The notes under the pieces were generated by a model. It was not told the DNA's origin and searched no databases. It was given only the letters and a program-made list of their open reading frames with translations. A DNA stretch of 64,000 nt from Galbibacter kalidii (GTDB lineage: Bacteria > Bacteroidota > Bacteroidia > Flavobacteriales > Flavobacteriaceae). Numbering within the stretch: position 1 is the stretch's first letter; the number at the start of each line of letters is the position of its first letter. Shown piece after piece: positions 1,144 to 53,389 of this stretch. The translations under genes and the position numbers were made by a program. The stretch lies in contig NZ_JAPFGA010000005.1 of assembly GCF_026241135.1 (NCBI RefSeq), forward strand, positions 1 to 64,000, in the 5' to 3' direction.

Positions 1144-1262
1144 TAAATTACCTCGGGATGCGAGGCATTAGATGGAAAATCTAAAAGACATTGTCGACGC
1201 CCGCCTGAACGGAATGGGCAGGCAAGTGTCGGGGCATTTAAAATCTCACTTAGTGAGTAAAA
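1144..1262 (+). promoter_or_regulatory. Two-module structured leader, copy 1, upstream of ffh
   Basis: The 5' module TAAATTACCTCGGG (1144-1157) and the 3' module ending CTCACTTAGTGAGTAAA (1236-1262) recur upstream of tRNA-Thr (11416-11537) and coaD (52077-52225). Between them lie variable hairpins, here including GCCCGCCTGAACGG...GGGCAGGC. CTCAC-TTA-GTGAG can form a tight stem-loop. The ffh ATG follows 13 bases after the 3' module. It could be a cis-regulatory RNA. A known Bacteroidota RNA motif such as flavo-1 is one candidate, which I cannot verify from sequence alone. Confidence 0.6.
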
Positions 1263-1275
1263 GAAGAAATACAAT

Positions 1276-2604
1276 ATGTTTGATAGTTTAAGCGAAAAGT
1301 TAGATAAGGCGTTTCACGTTTTAAAAGGACACGGACAAATCACCGAGGTGAACGTTGCGGAAACACTTAAGGAAGTGCGCCGTGCGTTGCTCGATGCCGA
1401 TGTGAATTTTAAAACGGCTAAAGAATTTACCAATACAGTAAAAGAAAAAGCGCTGGGGCAAAATGTATTAACGACATTGAAGCCCGGGCAGCTTATGGTT
1501 AAGCTTGTTAAGGATGAGCTTTCAGAATTGATGGGCGGTGAGGCAGCCGGAGTTGACCTTTCAGGTGATCCGTCTGTGATTTTGATGGCGGGTCTGCAAG
1601 GTTCTGGTAAAACGACTTTTTCCGGTAAGCTGGCTAATTTCCTAAAAAACAAAAAAACAAAGAAACCTTTATTGGTGGCCTGTGATGTTTACCGTCCGGC
1701 AGCGATCAATCAGCTTCACGTAGTGGGGGAACAGGTTGGTGTTGAGGTCTATTCTGATAAGGGAAATTCTGATCCTGTTGCCATCGCAAAAGCAGCCATT
1801 TCCCATGCAAAGTCCAACGGACATAACGTGGTGATTGTCGATACAGCAGGTCGTTTAGCTGTGGATGAACAGATGATGAAGGAGATTTCCAATATCCATA
1901 AGGCGATCCAACCGAATGAGACCTTGTTTGTTGTGGATTCCATGACTGGTCAAGATGCGGTAAACACGGCCAAGGCATTTAACGATGTTTTGGACTTCAA
2001 CGGAGTGATCCTGACCAAATTGGACGGTGATACACGAGGGGGTGCTGCGCTTTCTATTAAATCGGTTGTGAACAAGCCGATCAAATTCATCGGTACCGGA
2101 GAAAAAATGGATGCTGTTGATGTGTTCTATCCGGCACGTATGGCCGATCGTATTTTGGGAATGGGAGATGTAGTTTCCTTAGTGGAAAGAGCCCAGGAAC
2201 AATATGACGAAGAGGAAGCGAGGAAACTTCACAAAAAGATCGCTAAAAACCAGTTTGGTTTTGATGATTTTCTGAATCAGATTCAGCAGATTAAGAAAAT
2301 GGGAAGCATGAAAGACCTGATGGGAATGATTCCCGGAGCAGGAAAAGCGCTTAAAGGAATGGATATCGACGACGATGCTTTTAAAGGAATAGAGGCTATT
2401 ATTCATTCGATGACCCCAGAGGAACGTTCTGATCCGAAGTTGATGAATGGGAGTAGGAAAAAGCGAATTGCTAAAGGAAGCGGAACTTCTGTTCAGGAAG
2501 TGAATCAGCTGTTGAAACAATTCAACCAAATGAGCAAAATGATGAAGATGATGCAAGGTGGCGGCGGACGAAAAATGATGCAGATGATGAGCGGATTGAA
2601 GTAG
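1276..2604 (+). CDS. ffh: Signal recognition particle protein Ffh
   Basis: This is the GTPase that binds 4.5S RNA and signal peptides of nascent membrane or secreted proteins and docks with FtsY. The 442 residues are normal for the family. The N domain (about 1-90, starting MFDSLSEKLDKAF) is followed by the G domain with P-loop GLQGSGKTTFSGKLA, DTAGR and TKLDGD. The M domain ends in a methionine-rich tail (MSKMMKMMQGGGGRKMMQMM) that forms the signal-peptide groove. The gene is complete, with ATG 13 bases after the conserved leader hairpin. folD follows on the same strand after about 96 bases of repeat-rich spacer, so cotranscription is possible. A regulated leader on ffh would be unusual. Confidence 0.97.
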   Translation: MFDSLSEKLDKAFHVLKGHGQITEVNVAETLKEVRRALLDADVNFKTAKEFTNTVKEKALGQNVLTTLKPGQLMVKLVKDELSELMGGEAAGVDLSGDPSVILMAGLQGSGKTTFSGKLANFLKNKKTKKPLLVACDVYRPAAINQLHVVGEQVGVEVYSDKGNSDPVAIAKAAISHAKSNGHNVVIVDTAGRLAVDEQMMKEISNIHKAIQPNETLFVVDSMTGQDAVNTAKAFNDVLDFNGVILTKLDGDTRGGAALSIKSVVNKPIKFIGTGEKMDAVDVFYPARMADRILGMGDVVSLVERAQEQYDEEEARKLHKKIAKNQFGFDDFLNQIQQIKKMGSMKDLMGMIPGAGKALKGMDIDDDAFKGIEAIIHSMTPEERSDPKLMNGSRKKRIAKGSGTSVQEVNQLLKQFNQMSKMMKMMQGGGGRKMMQMMSGLK

Positions 2605-6525: not shown

Positions 6526-6597
6526 GAACTCATTAAAATATTTTGATTGAAGCGAAAATCACTCTTTTAAGCCGATTAAAAATATTTAAGCGAGTTC
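6526..6597. repeat. GAACTC-type hairpin element, copy 2
   Basis: The element starts GAACTCATTAAAATATTTTG, holds the core GATTGAAGCGAAAA and ends AATATTTAAGCGAGTTC. Its ends are inverted repeats of each other. It sits between the divergent rho and DUF4293 genes, 16 bases before the latter's start codon. Confidence 0.75.
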
Positions 6598-10966: not shown

Positions 10967-11014
10967 AACTCATTTAAGCTTTTTCGCTTCCATCAAAAAA
11001 GTTTAAACGAGTTC
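10967..11014. repeat. GAACTC-type hairpin element, copy 3 (short form)
   Basis: AACTCATTTAAGCTTTTTCG opens the element, the core is in reverse orientation (TTTTTCGCTTCCATCAAAA), and it closes with GTTTAAACGAGTTC. It starts on the base after the manA stop codon. The stem and A/T-rich flanks could terminate manA transcription. Confidence 0.72.
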
Positions 11015-11054
11015 ATGAAAAATAATGTATTTTTATATTTAAATCTTGATAATT

Positions 11055-11415: not shown

Positions 11416-11537
11416 TGTAAAATACTTCGGGGTAAGCCTGCCTGCCGACAAAGGCAGGCCCAAAAGGCACTAGGGACAACCTAAAAAATATTTAAGTGTA
11501 AGCTTCGAGATATTTAAAATCTCACTTAGTGAGTAAA
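11416..11537 (+). promoter_or_regulatory. Two-module structured leader, copy 2, immediately upstream of tRNA-Thr
   Basis: The 5' module TGTAAAATACTTCGGGG (11416-11432), the hairpin GCCTGCCTGCCGAC/AAAGGCAGGC (11436-11459) and the 3' module (11512-11537) match the leaders of ffh and coaD. The 26-base 3' module is identical to that of ffh. Only one base separates it from the tRNA. This is odd for a translation-controlling leader and argues either for an independent small RNA or for a control acting on transcription or processing. Confidence 0.6.
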
Positions 11538-11538
11538 G

Positions 11539-11612
11539 GCCGATGTAGCTCAGCTGGCTAGAGCAGCTGATTTGTAATCAGCAGGTCGTGGGTTCGAGTC
11601 CCTCCATCGGCT
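11539..11612 (+). tRNA. tRNA-Thr (anticodon TGT)
   Basis: The acceptor stem GCCGATG/CATCGGC, the D-arm GCTCAGCTGGCTAGAGC, the anticodon stem-loop GCTGA-TTTGTAA-TCAGC and the T-arm GTGGGTTCGAGTCCC.. are all present. The loop gives anticodon TGT, reading ACA-type threonine codons. CCA is not encoded. The 3' end is duplicated downstream at 11717-11738. Confidence 0.95.
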
Positions 11613-11738
11613 CAAAAGAAAGCCTCTCAAAAATTGAGAGGCCTTTTTTGTTTGTGACGTCGTTGATGAAAATAAAATTAGAGGGGCGAGAAGCCTGTCC
11701 TGAGCGTAGACGAAGGGAGTCCCTCCATCGGCTCAAAA
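11596..11738. repeat. Direct duplication of the tRNA-Thr 3' end
   Basis: Twenty-two bases covering the last 17 of the tRNA plus the next five (core GTCCCTCCATCGGCTCAAAA) occur at 11596-11617 and again, identical, at 11717-11738. The 99 bases between hold a terminator and a GCCTGTCCTGAGCG... repeat fragment. Such a duplication resembles att-site scars made by integration into a tRNA 3' end, but no integrase is nearby. Confidence 0.8.
11619..11649 (+). terminator. Rho-independent terminator after tRNA-Thr
   Basis: GCCTCTCAA-AAA-TTGAGAGGC is a perfect 9-bp stem with a 3-base loop, followed by CTTTTTTG. It lies seven bases after the mature tRNA end. Confidence 0.92.
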
Positions 11739-11740
11739 AA

Positions 11741-11860
11741 GCTGTAAATTCAGATGTCATGCTGAGCTTGTCGAAGCATAATTTATTGAAGTTCAATATG
11801 TTTTCGACAGGCTCAGACTGACAAATCAAATTCACTAAGGGCTTTTTAGACAACCTCTTT
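11741..11860. repeat. Dispersed long-hairpin repeat (TGTCATGCTGAGC type), copy 1
   Basis: Arms TGTCATGCTGAGCTTGTCGA (from 11755) and TTCGACAGGCTCAGACTGAC (from 11803) form a long imperfect hairpin around ATTGAAGTTCAAT, itself a palindrome. Nearly the whole 120 bases recurs inverted at 45041-45192. It sits between the tRNA-Thr duplication and the 3' end of the cupin gene. This kind of repeat is widespread in Bacteroidota intergenic DNA. Confidence 0.75.
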
Positions 11861-11864
11861 TTGT

Positions 11865-12218
11865 TTACAGGATTTCGACTTCTTCCGGTACTATAAACAG
11901 GATAACACAACCTGTTTCTGTTTTTACCGAATGCTTAAAATTTGGTGGGGTATATAAGTAGTCACCAGCATGTAAAGTTGCTCCTTCAATGATGGCCGAT
12001 CCTTCCAATACGTACAACTCTTCTCCTGATGGATGGTTGTGGTAGGGATAACTCGCATTTGGTTCAAATTTGAGTATTATGCTGGTAGAACGCTGGGATG
12101 TTTTGTCATATCGTAATGATTTAACATACATCCCTTTGTAATGAGTTCCTTTTTCAACTAACGGTTGCCAGTCCATGTTGGGTGTTTTAACGATGTAATC
12201 TTGAATGTTTGTGTTCAT
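11865..12218 (-). CDS. Cupin-domain protein (ChrR-like)
   Basis: This 117-residue single-domain cupin has metal-site motifs YPYHNHPSGEELYVLEG (His, His, Glu) and later GDYLYTPPNFKHSV (His), giving the full 3-His/1-Glu set. It resembles the anti-sigma ChrR-type C-terminal cupin and small oxygenase-like cupins. The natural ligand is unknown. There is no signal peptide. It lies 106 bases downstream of the AraC-family gene on the same strand and is a plausible target or partner of that regulator. Confidence 0.8.
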   Translation of the reverse strand: MNTNIQDYIVKTPNMDWQPLVEKGTHYKGMYVKSLRYDKTSQRSTSIILKFEPNASYPYHNHPSGEELYVLEGSAIIEGATLHAGDYLYTPPNFKHSVKTETGCVILFIVPEEVEIL

Positions 12219-16533: not shown

Positions 16534-16577
16534 AAGAGCATTTTTCGCTTCAATCAAACCAGTTTAAACATGCTCTA
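16534..16577. repeat. GAACTC-type hairpin element, copy 4 (divergent ends)
   Basis: AAGAGCATTTTTCGCTTCAA carries the reverse-oriented core, and CAGTTTAAACATGCTCT closes it, with AGAGCA/TGCTCT replacing GAACTC/GAGTTC as terminal arms. The compensating change at both ends keeps the hairpin. Its right end includes the gltD stop codon. Confidence 0.68.
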
Positions 16578-39252: not shown

Positions 39253-40869
39253 ATGGCAGAAATCATTAACATGCCGCGATTGAGCGACACCATGGAAGAA
39301 GGTGTAGTTGCTAAGTGGCTTAAAAAAGTAGGAGATAAAGTAGAAGAAGGCGATATCTTAGCCGAAATCGAAACCGATAAAGCTACAATGGAGTTTGAAT
39401 CCTTTCACGAAGGGGTGTTGCTTCATATTGGTATTGAAGAAGGCGATGGTGCACCAGTAGATTCCCTTTTGGCAATTATTGGAGAAAAAGGAGAAGATAT
39501 TTCCGGTTTGCTAAACGGAAATACAGCCGAAGCTAAAGAAGAAACTACTGAAGAAAAACCTACTGAGGAAGTGAAAACTGAAGCTGCTACAGAAATCCCT
39601 GCAGGAGTGGAAGTGGTTAGTATGCCGCGATTGAGCGACACCATGGAAGAAGGAACCGTAGCTTCTTGGCTCAAGAAAGTAGGAGACGATGTTGAAGAAG
39701 GCGATATTTTAGCCGAAATCGAAACCGATAAAGCGACGATGGAGTTTGAATCGTTCTACTCCGGAAAATTGCTGTATATCGGTATTGAAGAAGGACAATC
39801 AGCTCCGGTTGATGATGTTTTGGCTATCATTGGACCTGATGGAACAGATGTTGACGCCGTATTGGCTGCTGCAAAATCTGGAGGTACTGCCGCTAAAGAA
39901 GAAAGTACTCCTGCTGCCCCCGAAAAGAAAGAGGCAGTTAAAGAAGAGAAAAAAGAAGTGGTAACGTCTACTTCAAACGGAAGGATTTTTGTTTCTCCAT
40001 TGGCGAAAAAAATGGCGGCGGAGAAAGGCATTGACCTGACTAAGGTTCAAGGTTCTGGAGAGAACGGACGAATCGTTAAAAAAGATATTGAAAATTATAT
40101 ACCTGTTGCTGAAAGTGCAGCGACTCCGGCTACAGATAAAGCCGCCGCCGCCGCTTCAAATGTGATGCCTTTTGTCCCTGCAGGGGAAGAAAGCGTAGAA
40201 GAGAAGAAGAATTCTCAAATGCGTAAAACCATTGCCAAGAGACTTGGTGAATCTAAATTCTCGGCACCACATTACTATTTGACCATAGAGGCAGATATGA
40301 GCAATGCCATGGCATCCCGCGTACAGATCAATGAATTGCCGGATATCAAAGTATCGTTTAACGATATGGTTGTGAAAGCATGTGCAATGGCATTGAAAAA
40401 GCATCCGCAAGTAAACACCAGTTGGAAAGATGATGTAACGGTGTACAACCACCATATTCACATTGGAGTAGCTGTAGCTGTTGACGAAGGTCTTTTAGTA
40501 CCTGTATTGAAATTCACAGATCAAATGAGTTTGACACAAATAGGAGGGAAAGTTCGTGAATTGGCTGGAAAAGCGAGGGATAAAAAGATCACTCCTCAGG
40601 AAATGGAAGGCAGTACGTTTACGGTTTCCAACTTGGGAATGTTCGGTATTCAGGAATTTACCTCGATTATAAATCAGCCCAATTCCGCTATTCTTTCCGT
40701 AGGAAGCATCGTTGAAAAACCAGTGGTTAAAAACGGAGAGATTGTAGTAGGACACACGATGAAAGTTACTTTAGCTTGCGACCACAGAACAGTGGATGGT
40801 GCTACAGGAGCTCAGTTCCTGCAAACCTTACAGGCTTACTTGGAAAACCCTGTAACTATGTTGGCGTAA
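39253..40869 (+). CDS. pdhC: Pyruvate dehydrogenase E2, dihydrolipoamide acetyltransferase
   Basis: The 538-residue E2 core transfers acetyl to CoA. Two N-terminal lipoyl domains (about 1-78 and 119-196) each carry EIETDKATMEFESF with the lipoylated Lys. They are nearly identical, also in DNA. Ala/Glu/Lys-rich linkers separate them. The E1/E3-binding domain is VSPLAKKMAAEKGIDL to KKDIENY. The catalytic domain ends with CDHRTVDGATGAQF (His and Asp). Confidence 0.96.
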   Translation: MAEIINMPRLSDTMEEGVVAKWLKKVGDKVEEGDILAEIETDKATMEFESFHEGVLLHIGIEEGDGAPVDSLLAIIGEKGEDISGLLNGNTAEAKEETTEEKPTEEVKTEAATEIPAGVEVVSMPRLSDTMEEGTVASWLKKVGDDVEEGDILAEIETDKATMEFESFYSGKLLYIGIEEGQSAPVDDVLAIIGPDGTDVDAVLAAAKSGGTAAKEESTPAAPEKKEAVKEEKKEVVTSTSNGRIFVSPLAKKMAAEKGIDLTKVQGSGENGRIVKKDIENYIPVAESAATPATDKAAAAASNVMPFVPAGEESVEEKKNSQMRKTIAKRLGESKFSAPHYYLTIEADMSNAMASRVQINELPDIKVSFNDMVVKACAMALKKHPQVNTSWKDDVTVYNHHIHIGVAVAVDEGLLVPVLKFTDQMSLTQIGGKVRELAGKARDKKITPQEMEGSTFTVSNLGMFGIQEFTSIINQPNSAILSVGSIVEKPVVKNGEIVVGHTMKVTLACDHRTVDGATGAQFLQTLQAYLENPVTMLA

Positions 40870-45024: not shown

Positions 45025-45040
45025 CTCAGGGGTAAAAAAT

Positions 45041-45192
45041 TAAGAGGCTTCTAAAAAGCCCTTAGTGAATATGATTTGTCAGTCTGAGCCTGCCTACCGT
45101 CAGGCAGGCCTGTCGAAGACCTATTGAACTTCAATAAATTATGCTTCGACAAGCTCAGCATGACATCTGGATTCACAACTTTTCAGACAGCC
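45041..45192. repeat. Dispersed long-hairpin repeat (TGTCATGCTGAGC type), copy 2, inverted
   Basis: Read on the minus strand this repeats 11741-11860 almost base for base, from AGATGTCATGCTGAGCTTGT to CACTAAGGGCTTTTTAGA. It carries one extra 22-base palindrome GCCTGCCTACCG/TCAGGCAGGC (45088-45109). It fills the left half of the 336-base spacer after the DUF389 gene. The right half holds a terminator and a tandem array. Confidence 0.78.
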
Positions 45193-45250: not shown

Positions 45251-45273
45251 TATTTTATTTTTTATTGAAATTA

Positions 45274-45365
45274 CCTTAAACCTTAAACCTTAAACCTTAA
45301 ACCTTAAACCTTAAACCTTAAACCTTAAACCTTAAACCTTAAACCTTAAACCTTTAAACCTTAAA
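45274..45365. repeat. Tandem CCTTAAA 7-bp array, 13 units
   Basis: Thirteen head-to-tail units of CCTTAAA run from 45274 to 45365. The twelfth has one extra T (CCTTTAAA). The last three bases of the array overlap the stop codon and last Val codon region of the SRPBCC gene (stop at 45361-45363). No spacers are present, so it is not a CRISPR. It is likely to vary in copy number. Confidence 0.92.
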
Positions 45366-45756
45366 CGACCTTGCCCATATTTTCAGTCAGCGTATTGATA
45401 AAATTGGTGATCGGACCTTTGATCATCATCCCCATCATGGCGTTGAATTCGCCTTCAAAAACCAAATTGACTTCACTTTTGTCGCTTTCCAGACTATCTA
45501 TATTGGCTGTTAGCGTAAAGGGTAATTTATCGTTTGCGGCTCCCAAAACAAGTTTGTCGTGAGGGTACTTTTCTTTTACTTTTAATTCGATTTCAGGCAT
45601 TCCTTTTAAGGCAAAAACAAATTTGTCTTCTTCTAAAACCTCAAACCTACTAGTGTTTTCGGGCATCAATTTTTCAAAATTCTTGACATCTCCCAAGAAA
45701 TCGAACAATTCTTCAGCCGATTTATTTATAGTTTTTTTTTGTGTTTCTAACTTCAT
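45361..45756 (-). CDS. SRPBCC (START-like) superfamily protein
   Basis: ATG at 45756 gives a 131-residue single-domain protein of the SRPBCC fold: MKLETQKKTINKSAEELFDF opens the cavity-forming first strand and helix, VKNFEKLMPENTSRFEV is typical, and the long C-terminal helix ends TNFINTLTENMGKVV. These proteins bind lipid-like molecules. The ligand is unknown. The first 13 in-frame residues upstream overlap pyrE and are unlikely to be used. It follows pyrE on the same strand after 8 bases. Its 3' end runs into the CCTTAAA array. Confidence 0.82.
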   Translation of the reverse strand: MKLETQKKTINKSAEELFDFLGDVKNFEKLMPENTSRFEVLEEDKFVFALKGMPEIELKVKEKYPHDKLVLGAANDKLPFTLTANIDSLESDKSEVNLVFEGEFNAMMGMMIKGPITNFINTLTENMGKVV

Positions 45757-51602: not shown

Positions 51603-52067
51603 TTAGGTTTTTTCTTTAAAACGGACGGTTTCCGGCACGAGTCCTGTATAATCCCCATTGTTTCGGATAACATCCCTGACAATGGAGGAAGATATGTAGC
51701 TTTTGCCCGAGGATGTAAGCAAAAACACGGTCTCTATTTCAGAAAGTTTTCTGTTGGTATGTGCGATGGCCTTTTCAAACTCGAAGTCGCCCGGATTGCG
51801 CAAACCTCGTAAAATGAACTGCGCATCGATCTTTTTACAAAATTCCACAGTCAAGCCTTCATAAATCATTACCTTGACTTTCGGTTCGTGTTTAAAAGCT
51901 TCTTCAATAAAGCGCTTGCGCTCTTCGAGAGAGAACATGTATTTTTTTTCGGCATTGATGCCAATAGCGATCACAAGTTCATCGAATAGAGTAACGCCAC
52001 GGACAATAATGTCGTAGTGCCCCAGTGTAATGGGGTCAAATGATCCTGGAAAAATGGCTCTACGCAT
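51603..52067 (-). CDS. coaD: Pantetheine-phosphate adenylyltransferase
   Basis: CoaD joins ATP and phosphopantetheine to dephospho-CoA. The 154 residues match the family. The TxGH nucleotidyl-transfer motif is in FPGSFDPITLGHYDI, then FILRGLRNPGDFEFE and SYISSSIVRDVI (ISSTxxR-like). A conserved two-module leader ends 9 bases before its ATG. The kinase gene follows 38 bases downstream, so the leader may affect both. Confidence 0.97.
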   Translation of the reverse strand: MRRAIFPGSFDPITLGHYDIIVRGVTLFDELVIAIGINAEKKYMFSLEERKRFIEEAFKHEPKVKVMIYEGLTVEFCKKIDAQFILRGLRNPGDFEFEKAIAHTNRKLSEIETVFLLTSSGKSYISSSIVRDVIRNNGDYTGLVPETVRFKEKT

Positions 52068-52076
52068 ACGCTATAT

Positions 52077-52225
52077 TTTACTCACTAAGTGGGATTTTGA
52101 ATATTCCGATCTTGCGCCGAAATGCTTTTAAGATTTTCCGCCCAACCAGCTCGACTGTATCATTCAGGCGGGTGTCTCACGAGCCTACCTTTGTCGGCAG
52201 ACAAGCTTCCCCGAGGTGATTTACA
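52077..52225 (-). promoter_or_regulatory. Two-module structured leader, copy 3, upstream of coaD
   Basis: Read on the minus strand it starts TGTAAATCACCTCGGGG (52225-52209), contains TCTGCCGACAAAGGTAGGC, and ends with the AAAATCCCACTTAGTGAGTA module (52102-52077), one base different from the copies upstream of ffh and tRNA-Thr. The spacer between ddl and coaD therefore holds little else. Confidence 0.6.
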
Positions 52226-53271: not shown

Positions 53272-53300
53272 TTGTATATTATAAAACCGTTTTTAACGTT

Positions 53301-53389
53301 GAACTTATTCAAACTTTATTCATTGAAGCGAAAAATATGGGGTGAAAAGATCATTTTTGCAACCAATTGGAGAAAGTTTGAATAAGTTC
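53301..53389. repeat. GAACTC-type hairpin element, copy 5
   Basis: GAACTTATTCAAACTTTATT opens it, the core CATTGAAGCGAAAAATATGG follows, and AGAAAGTTTGAATAAGTTC closes it as an inverted repeat of the start. It matches copy 1 on both flanks but lacks the inner 60-base hairpin part. It sits between the divergent ddl and PASTA genes. Confidence 0.75.

Follow-up and report, generated by a model that had tools for sequence, protein, structure and literature searches.

Short dispersed hairpin elements of Galbibacter and other Flavobacteriaceae are mobile and probably belong to the palindrome-associated transposable elements

The analysed 64,000 nt of the Galbibacter kalidii genome (hereafter the window) contain three copies of a short element, located at 1144-1261 (+), 11418-11537 (+) and 52077-52223 (-). 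The first copy lies in the 5' region of ffh (SRP54; 1276..2604, +; Pfam SRP54, SRP_SPB and SRP54_N) and ends 14 nt before its ATG at 1276. The second is separated by 1 nt from tRNA-Thr (TGT; 11539..11613, +; detected by ARAGORN and as Rfam tRNA), and the third by 9 nt from the ATG (52067) of a 154 aa coaD-like gene (51603..52067, -), which owes its name to the original prediction and matches the Pfam CTP_transf_like (cytidylyltransferase-like) domain. The original prediction described three two-part copies with a common 3' module ending within 15 bases of these genes, and this description stands at near-identical coordinates. With up to three mismatches, the 17-mer CTCACTTAGTGAGTAAA occurs three times in the window against 0.20 expected, and none of 100 shuffles reached three. 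The near identity claimed for the 3' module is also borne out: the ffh and tRNA-Thr copies have 26 identical bases in common (11512-11537, 100%), while the coaD copy has a single mismatch within the 17-mer.

The element copy next to ffh extends from its left TAAA to the end of its last hairpin (1144..1257, +) and is followed by another TAAA at 1258..1261 (+). The latter, TTTA on the presumed moving strand, is taken to be a pre-existing target in view of the empty site of a congener, G006 (GTGTAAAAAGAAGC). Four hairpins are predicted by folding on the plus strand of this copy: H1 (CCTCGGGATGCGAGG, 1151..1165), supported by covarying pairs; H2 (1168..1184), the worst paired helix (52-67% of cells); H3 (1194..1232), holding an extra hairpin in the loop where other copies have different inserts; and the terminal H4 (CTCAC-TTA-GTGAG, 1245..1257), with 95-99% of cells paired in three alignments. 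The tRNA-Thr copy occupies 11418..11533 (+) and the coaD copy 52081..52223 (-), with their 3' TAAA at 11534..11537 (+) and 52077..52080 (-), respectively. R1, a covariance model built from 16 copies including two of the three in the window, matched 1144-1264 (98.3 bits, E 2.7e-16), 11418-11540 (75.9 bits, E 4.2e-12) and 52074-52223 (50.3 bits, E 2.5e-7), with no other match in the window at E <0.4.

These three copies are a sample of a dispersed family. In the whole genome of the window (G000, 4.66 Mb) the 17-mer with at most two mismatches occurs 60 times against one occurrence of the reversed control, and R1 gives 62 matches at E ≤0.01. Other members of the genus contain 12 (G003), 6 (G004), 69 (G005) and 8 (G006) matches, and two have none, so the copy number within one genus is 0, 0, 6, 8, 12, 69 and about 60. 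Among 39 relatives scanned with R1, matches were found in five, four of them congeneric and one (G007, five matches) of another genus; there were none in the other 32 relatives outside the genus, scoring the best 90 first-look candidates per genome, a procedure that gave 58 matches for G000. When about 85,000 species genomes were searched for an exact 21-mer, 60 stretches were returned, in Arenibacter (20), Salegentibacter (14), Aquimarina (13), Sinomicrobium (6), Galbibacter (3), Tenacibaculum (2), Algibacter (1) and one Bacteroidia MAG. As these loci were found by the exact 21-mer, its conservation in them proves nothing. Plasmids and phages searched with one copy as the query gave no match, nor did viral contigs searched with the exact 21-mer. 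Copies were extracted for 61 of the 62 matches in G000, about 43 of 69 in G005, 11 of 12 in G003, 5 of 6 in G004, 3 of 8 in G006 and 1 of 5 in G007. In two cases (L027/L043 and L244/L385) the same intergenic region is occupied by a copy both in G000 and in G003.

All three genes flanking the window copies are present in the six congeneric genomes, and at all three sites the element is absent from all six. R1 found nothing below E 0.85 in the 21 congener loci of these sites. At the ffh site G006 reads GGGTGTAAAAAGAAGC, while G000 reads GGATTAAATTACC ... GTGAGTAAAAGAAG; the upstream sequence of the relatives runs on to the gene. At the tRNA-Thr site G003 has TTTTTAATGCAAAC followed by the tRNA, where G000 has TTTTTAATG, the element, TAAAG and the tRNA. 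The coaD site of the relatives consists of a short stretch before the ATG, with GTAAA in several of them. TAnnTTTG boxes are promoters of Bacteroidota. Upstream of the element all seven genomes have boxes in common (TTAAATTTGCA, TTATATTTGC and CTATATTTACA), which by their sequence are likely to be the promoters of the three genes, so the element would have come between promoter and gene by insertion. Since every one of the three genes occurs without it in six of six congeners, the element is mobile. An ancestral regulatory leader is ruled out by the same empty sites; conservation upstream of orthologs, the check named in the original prediction, amounts to none of six congeners at each gene. 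For copies with a left TCAA (L027, L050, L184, L199 and L200) no clean empty junction was found, the flanks being too diverged.

On the sense strand the element consists of a left TCAA or TAAA, H1 (CCTCG-GGGC-AA-GCCC-A-CGAGG), H2 (TTAGG..CCTAA), H3 (CGACGC-AA-GCGTCG), H4 (CTCAC-TTA-GTGAG) and TAAA. H1 starts 7 nt from the left end, has GTAG at its foot on one strand, and H4 abuts TAAA. The length is mostly 93-165 nt, too short for a transposase gene. Extra hairpins are often held in the loops of H1 and H3, which accounts for the "variable hairpins" noticed earlier. Stems vary in a matched fashion among subfamilies: CTCAC/GTGAG, CTCGA/TCGAG, CCCAC/GTGGG and CCCTC/GAGGG for H4, and GGGC/GCCC, GAGC/GCTC, GTGC/GCAC and AGGC/GCCT for the inner stem of H1. 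The predicted covarying stems are thus present, alongside mobility: both sides had changed at least once in 21, 21 and 19 of 23 pairs in three alignments, and 83% of the cells paired as compared to 71-72% after shuffling and at most 54% in slid controls. Raw MAFFT alignment with RNAalifold gave H1 and H4 only, the structure of R1 was set by hand and the later alignments were fitted to R1, so the pair counts lean to that structure, a bias which the far lower slid controls remove incompletely. In H3 the sense strand shows more G.T than A.C pairs (263 to 80), with no such preference in H1, H2 and H4. If the complement were the folding strand, the sense-strand G.T pairs of H3 would be mismatches on it, and their excess would be unexplained. 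Small nested hairpins such as GCCTGCCTGCCGACAAAGGCAGGC are found in the H1 or H3 loops of the window copies (1200-1223, 11436-11459 and 52183-52206), and the one of the coaD copy also matches places in G000 outside the R1 matches. They recall the small repeats which target the palindromes of palindrome-associated transposable elements (PATEs), as mentioned in the available part of PMC3119063.

The right end of the element is a mostly fixed TAAA, the left end usually TCAA or TAAA. Counting only copies whose H4 fell within the search patterns, 84 of the 105 subfamily A copies have TAAA on the right, and on the left 33 have TAAA and 31 TCAA; subfamily B has TCAA on the left in 24 of 29 copies and on the right in two of 29. 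Left and right tetranucleotides coincide in 24 of the 105 subfamily A copies, and 26.7 are expected from shuffling. As this is no commoner than after shuffling, there is no target duplication. Tandem copies have one joint tetranucleotide at their junction (L213). In Salegentibacter holothuriorum (L088:2767-2885) a second copy starts directly at the TAAA of the first, as expected for a fresh target. When the first 20 nt were compared with the reverse complement of the last 20 in 124 A-type copies, 7.2 positions agreed on average versus 5.2 when the letters of one end were shuffled. The excess is slight, and the comparison revealed no extended terminal inverted repeat.

The orientation of the copies follows GC skew in one genome. 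In the main contig of G005 the element switches orientation in blocks, and these blocks are matched by blocks of third-position GC skew (40 samples of 20 kb). Among the matches listed for contig 1 (52 places, of 69 in the genome), the sense strand is on the C-rich strand in 46 of 52 (third-position skew, p = 1e-8), or in 45 of 52 with slightly different frame calling. For the same 52 places, smoothed and unsmoothed measures agree in 45 and 44 cases by third position, in 47 and 44 by intergenic skew, and in 42 and 32 by plain GC skew, the last value (32/52, unsmoothed plain skew in 20 kb samples) being not significant (p = 0.13). Of 37 extracted copies of this contig, agreement was found for all 11 in divergent gaps, all five in convergent gaps, all three in other contexts and 15 of 18 in same-direction gaps. 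Gene direction alone is therefore insufficient to explain the strand bias in G005.

Elsewhere the bias is weaker. In G000 33 of 52 places (out of 62; 20-kb test) agree (p = 0.07; Wilcoxon p = 0.009), and at places with a skew above 0.1 the figure is 25 of 34 (p = 0.009). Of the window copies, the one at coaD conforms to this trend and those at ffh and tRNA-Thr run counter to it. Third-position skew in short windows around the copies agrees in 49 of 75 cases in G000, 33 of 49 in G005 and 15 of 20 in G003, G004, G006 and G007 taken together, and copies from the 21-mer search of species genomes show no third-position effect (31/61). Plain GC skew in short windows did not agree, being negative in only 29 of 75 (G000), 24 of 49 (G005), 7 of 20 (the four smaller sets) and 28 of 61 (21-mer loci). 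We put the poorer showing of plain GC skew down to the effect of gene direction.

As a usual rule, the G-rich strand is the leading strand. In G005 this assignment is supported by one tRNA match (C1:1492881, +) of the kind that stands beside 16S in G003, G004 and G006; a motif search of 40 sampled windows of G005 found no rRNA or ribosomal protein gene as a leading-strand marker, and a search for 16S in this genome did not find it. With the G-rich strand leading, the complement of the element would lie on the lagging-strand template, as predicted by IS200/IS605 biology in the portion of PMC6006769 devoted to it. In one published genome IS605 elements had no strand preference (10/22), and a PATE-like sequence was reported from the same genome (PMC7290912, in part). 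Block by block tracking of GC skew means that the orientation of the element may mark replication direction and inversions in G005.

The position of the copies relative to genes was assessed for 205 deduplicated copies, with E up to 0.1 admitted for G000 and the 21-mer species loci and with genes called as the longest non-overlapping open frames. A same-strand gene is preceded by 134 of the copies, 23 are in convergent gaps and 14 overlap an open frame. In same-direction gaps 93 of 120 copies are read with the genes (p = 1e-9): 33 of 42 in G000, 23 of 27 in G005, 14 of 15 in G003, G004, G006 and G007, and 23 of 36, which is not significant, in the 21-mer species loci. Many copies end 5-40 nt before a start codon. 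This is not general, distances reaching hundreds of nt. Nearness to genes can arise from target frequency and host tolerance.

Three copies are located within protein genes and keep the reading frame open, all in the same ...KSHLV frame. The hosts are a ThiE-like gene (L032; Pfam TMP-TENI) placed between genes which presumably are thiC and thiD, a PepSY_TM gene (L036; Pfam) and a menC-like gene (L185; Pfam MenC_N and MR_MLE_C matches). The inserts up to the end of H4 are 156, 117 and 99 nt long. In-frame length was found in three of three genic copies versus one of 53, a comparison that is partly circular as genic copies were recognised by the open frame. The ThiE-like protein contains a segment of about 46 residues which its counterparts in four congeners lack. 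The segment of the MenC-like protein lies between the MenC_N match (20-95, below the Pfam cut-off) and the MR_MLE_C match (164-366, above it). PDB 2pge_A aligned with this protein on both sides and left an unaligned middle of 64 vs 66 residues, so no extra length is shown by this alignment. Judging by the open frame, the segments are presumably translated. One could tentatively go further and regard the QQP...KSHLVSK lineage as a mobile protein-insertion cassette, with one stop-free frame, single-strand transposition and lengths divisible by three, which would add 33-52 residues to enzymes (ThiE-like, MenC-like, PepSY) without destroying them: a Rickettsia-type coding palindrome with IS200/IS605-like chemistry. 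We regard this as a speculative reading with the odds against it. With its in-frame copies in metabolic genes, the family offers a case outside Rickettsia in which the addition of protein segments by mobile DNA can be tested. A fourth copy (L184:1492-2742) extends the start of an esterase-like gene as an open N-terminal extension, has lost H4 and stands between direct repeats of 12 nt, AATGAGTCAATT.

Taken together, we consider it probable that the element is a non-autonomous transposable element of the PATE type, most likely moving as single-stranded DNA in the manner of IS200/IS605 by means of a Y1 (HuH) transposase acting in trans. Support for the IS200/IS605-like route is good in one genome and declines in the others, and the results on plain skew and end similarity slightly lowered our confidence in the explanation as a whole. 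The moving strand would be the complement of the one on which the original prediction was based, 5'-TTTA | CTCAC-TAA-GTGAG ... CCTCGTGGGCTTGCCCCGAGG-TAGTTGA | -3', with TTTA as the target staying beside the left end and TTGA or TTTA as the last four bases of the element itself. A Y1 transposase supplied in trans would cut and rejoin this strand, and insertion would occur into the exposed lagging-strand template. The gene-adjacent position and reading direction could then follow from target location, strand bias and host tolerance. We infer the role of a Y1 enzyme and the choice of strand; the activity may come from a TnpA-IS200-like or a REP-associated transposase.

PATEs are the closest named class. 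PATEs of Haloquadratum walsbyi, as described in the available part of PMC3119063, resemble the element in having palindromes near the ends and no target duplication, in being too short for a transposase and in harbouring insertions of other small elements within the terminal palindromes, comparable to the hairpins nested in H1 and H3. The element differs from them, comparing by description only, in being bacterial rather than archaeal and in its four hairpins, measured replication-strand bias and in-frame genic copies (PMC3119063). It resembles IS200/IS605, IS608 and ISDra2 in its subterminal hairpins, in a conserved tetranucleotide next to the left end and a second one closing the right end, and in the use of the lagging-strand template, but has no tnpA inside (sections of PMC6006769). 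RU-1/RU-2/RU-3 (ERIC-like) elements of enterobacteria are also small mobile repeats and also become fused to reading frames, but are MITE-like as described and live in a different host; this comparison, too, is by description only (excerpts of PMC2759123). A literature search among open-licence papers found no description of the element, so as far as searched the family is new in sequence while being of the known PATE type. Rickettsia palindromic elements are small mobile palindromes found in frame inside protein genes. By description only, the in-frame genic copies are like them, though in other bacteria and in a mostly intergenic family. They are cited in the available parts of PMC3733652 and PMC2759123.

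On the complementary strand the element ends with H1 followed by TAGTTGA, and a similar layout was found at two candidate source genes. In G003 and G006, hairpins with the H1 layout (CCCCGACGGCTCTGCCTCGGGGTAGTTCA and GCCTCGGGGCTTGCCCCGAGGATTATTAA) come directly after the stop codon of the IS200-type transposase gene, which matches NF033573 above cut-off. Compared with a profile built from 106 element ends, these hairpins reach scores of 8.3 and 9.5 in the expected polarity; scores of at least 8 occur at 29 per million background positions, true copies included. The third IS200 gene of the genus (L146, G000) has no H1-like hairpin. The right ends of two of the three IS200 genes in the genus therefore resemble H1; their left ends have no clear match. 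The Y1 search took in 20 loci of 35 match rows, and none of these 20 had a transposase gene flanked by the element or a full two-ended transposon (best R1 E 0.027-0.029). Among the 13 of 20 scored with the end profile, the remaining Y1 loci had no H1-like end except L153 of G012. There an H1-like stretch (L153:945-1027, -; score 22.7, R1 E 0.029) lies more than 400 nt from an IS200-type tnpA on the same strand. G012 has 14 Y1 matches and no R1 match at E ≤0.01, and two sister copies of the L153 gene lack such a stretch. Given the distance and the absence from sister copies, it is more likely to be a stray copy than a transposon end.

The same single-strand mechanism could be served by a resident RAYT (REP-associated tyrosine transposase) instead of an IS200 TnpA, which we see as a real but minority prospect. 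An intact RAYT gene is present in both genomes with the highest copy numbers (L157 of G000 and L150 of G005, NF047646 above cut-off), and G002 has zero copies and zero Y1 matches. The G005 gene is followed by CAACTACC and a hairpin, resembling TCAACTACC and H1 of the element. The RAYTs are, however, flanked by other hairpins and by no element copy: up to E 10, R1 matched neither L150 and L157 nor the RAYT-like loci L151 and L158, which stay below the RAYT cut-off. G003 and G006 hold 12 and 8 copies with one Y1 match each, of the IS200 type, and a correlation would need more than these seven genomes. As for known REP/REPIN and RAYT systems, the element is like them in its small dispersed palindromes, GTAG and RAYT in the top two genomes (PMC3733652 and PMC3116915, both in part). 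REPs measure 20-40 bp according to the available part of PMC3733652, whereas the element has about 100 nt, two unlike ends and no copy flanking the tested RAYT-like genes.

Sense-strand folding and replication-strand bias would also be expected of an RNA-based mobile element (group II intron-like or another reverse-transcribed RNA) using the nascent strand as a primer. The G.T excess in H3, the sense orientation with transcription and the strand bias all suit such an element. No intron or other Rfam match was found, the fixed tetranucleotides and the hairpins at IS200 right ends would be unexpected, and removal is unnecessary for the copies inside genes, whose frame stays open. We therefore give the RNA-based explanation little credence, and the PATE-type element remains our preferred reading.

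Of the readings in the original prediction, a regulatory or processing RNA and a mobile leader cassette, the mobile one survives. A leader RNA common to growth genes, riboswitch-like or a processing signal, would account for compensatory changes in the hairpins, the reading of 93 of 120 same-direction copies with the genes, the many ends shortly before start codons and the preference of H3 for the sense strand. It is contradicted by the absence upstream of all three orthologs in every congener, by the spread of about 60 dispersed copies in one genome and from 0 to 69 within the genus, and by copies inside genes and in convergent gaps (23/205), which make it very improbable. A regulatory role of the element is not supported; single copies could still affect their own gene. 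Flavo-1, suggested for comparison, and any other Rfam family were rejected: at gathering scores the window and eight copy-bearing loci (two of them from the window) match no Rfam family except tRNA, and permissive searches with two copies gave matches far below gathering scores, none of them flavo-1. A false lead, the joint leader of ffh, tRNA-Thr and coaD, is thus replaced by a family of Flavobacteriaceae transposable elements which can be searched for by a covariance model.

A classical MITE moved by a DDE transposase would likewise be short, dispersed and non-coding, and its inverted repeats might show as the slight end similarity (7.2 vs 5.2 of 20), but this explanation, hardly credible to us, is rejected on the lack of target duplication and of an extended terminal inverted repeat, with an end similarity barely above chance, and is at odds with the replication-strand bias.

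The window holds other repeats. One is a different dispersed repeat forming a long inverted pair (11733-11870 and 45032-45183), with dozens more matches in G000 and some in congeners. A dispersed motif, AAACTTTTTTGATTGAAGCGAAAAAT and AAAATATGGGGTGAAAAGATNATTTT, is found in both orientations at 85-214, 6532-6566, 10980-11015, 16534-16575 and 53300-53357. Two direct repeats of 243 nt, 76% identical and spaced by 351 nt, are located at 39259-39852, and a head-to-tail array of the 7-mer TTAAACC with a telomere-like look occupies 45269-45379.
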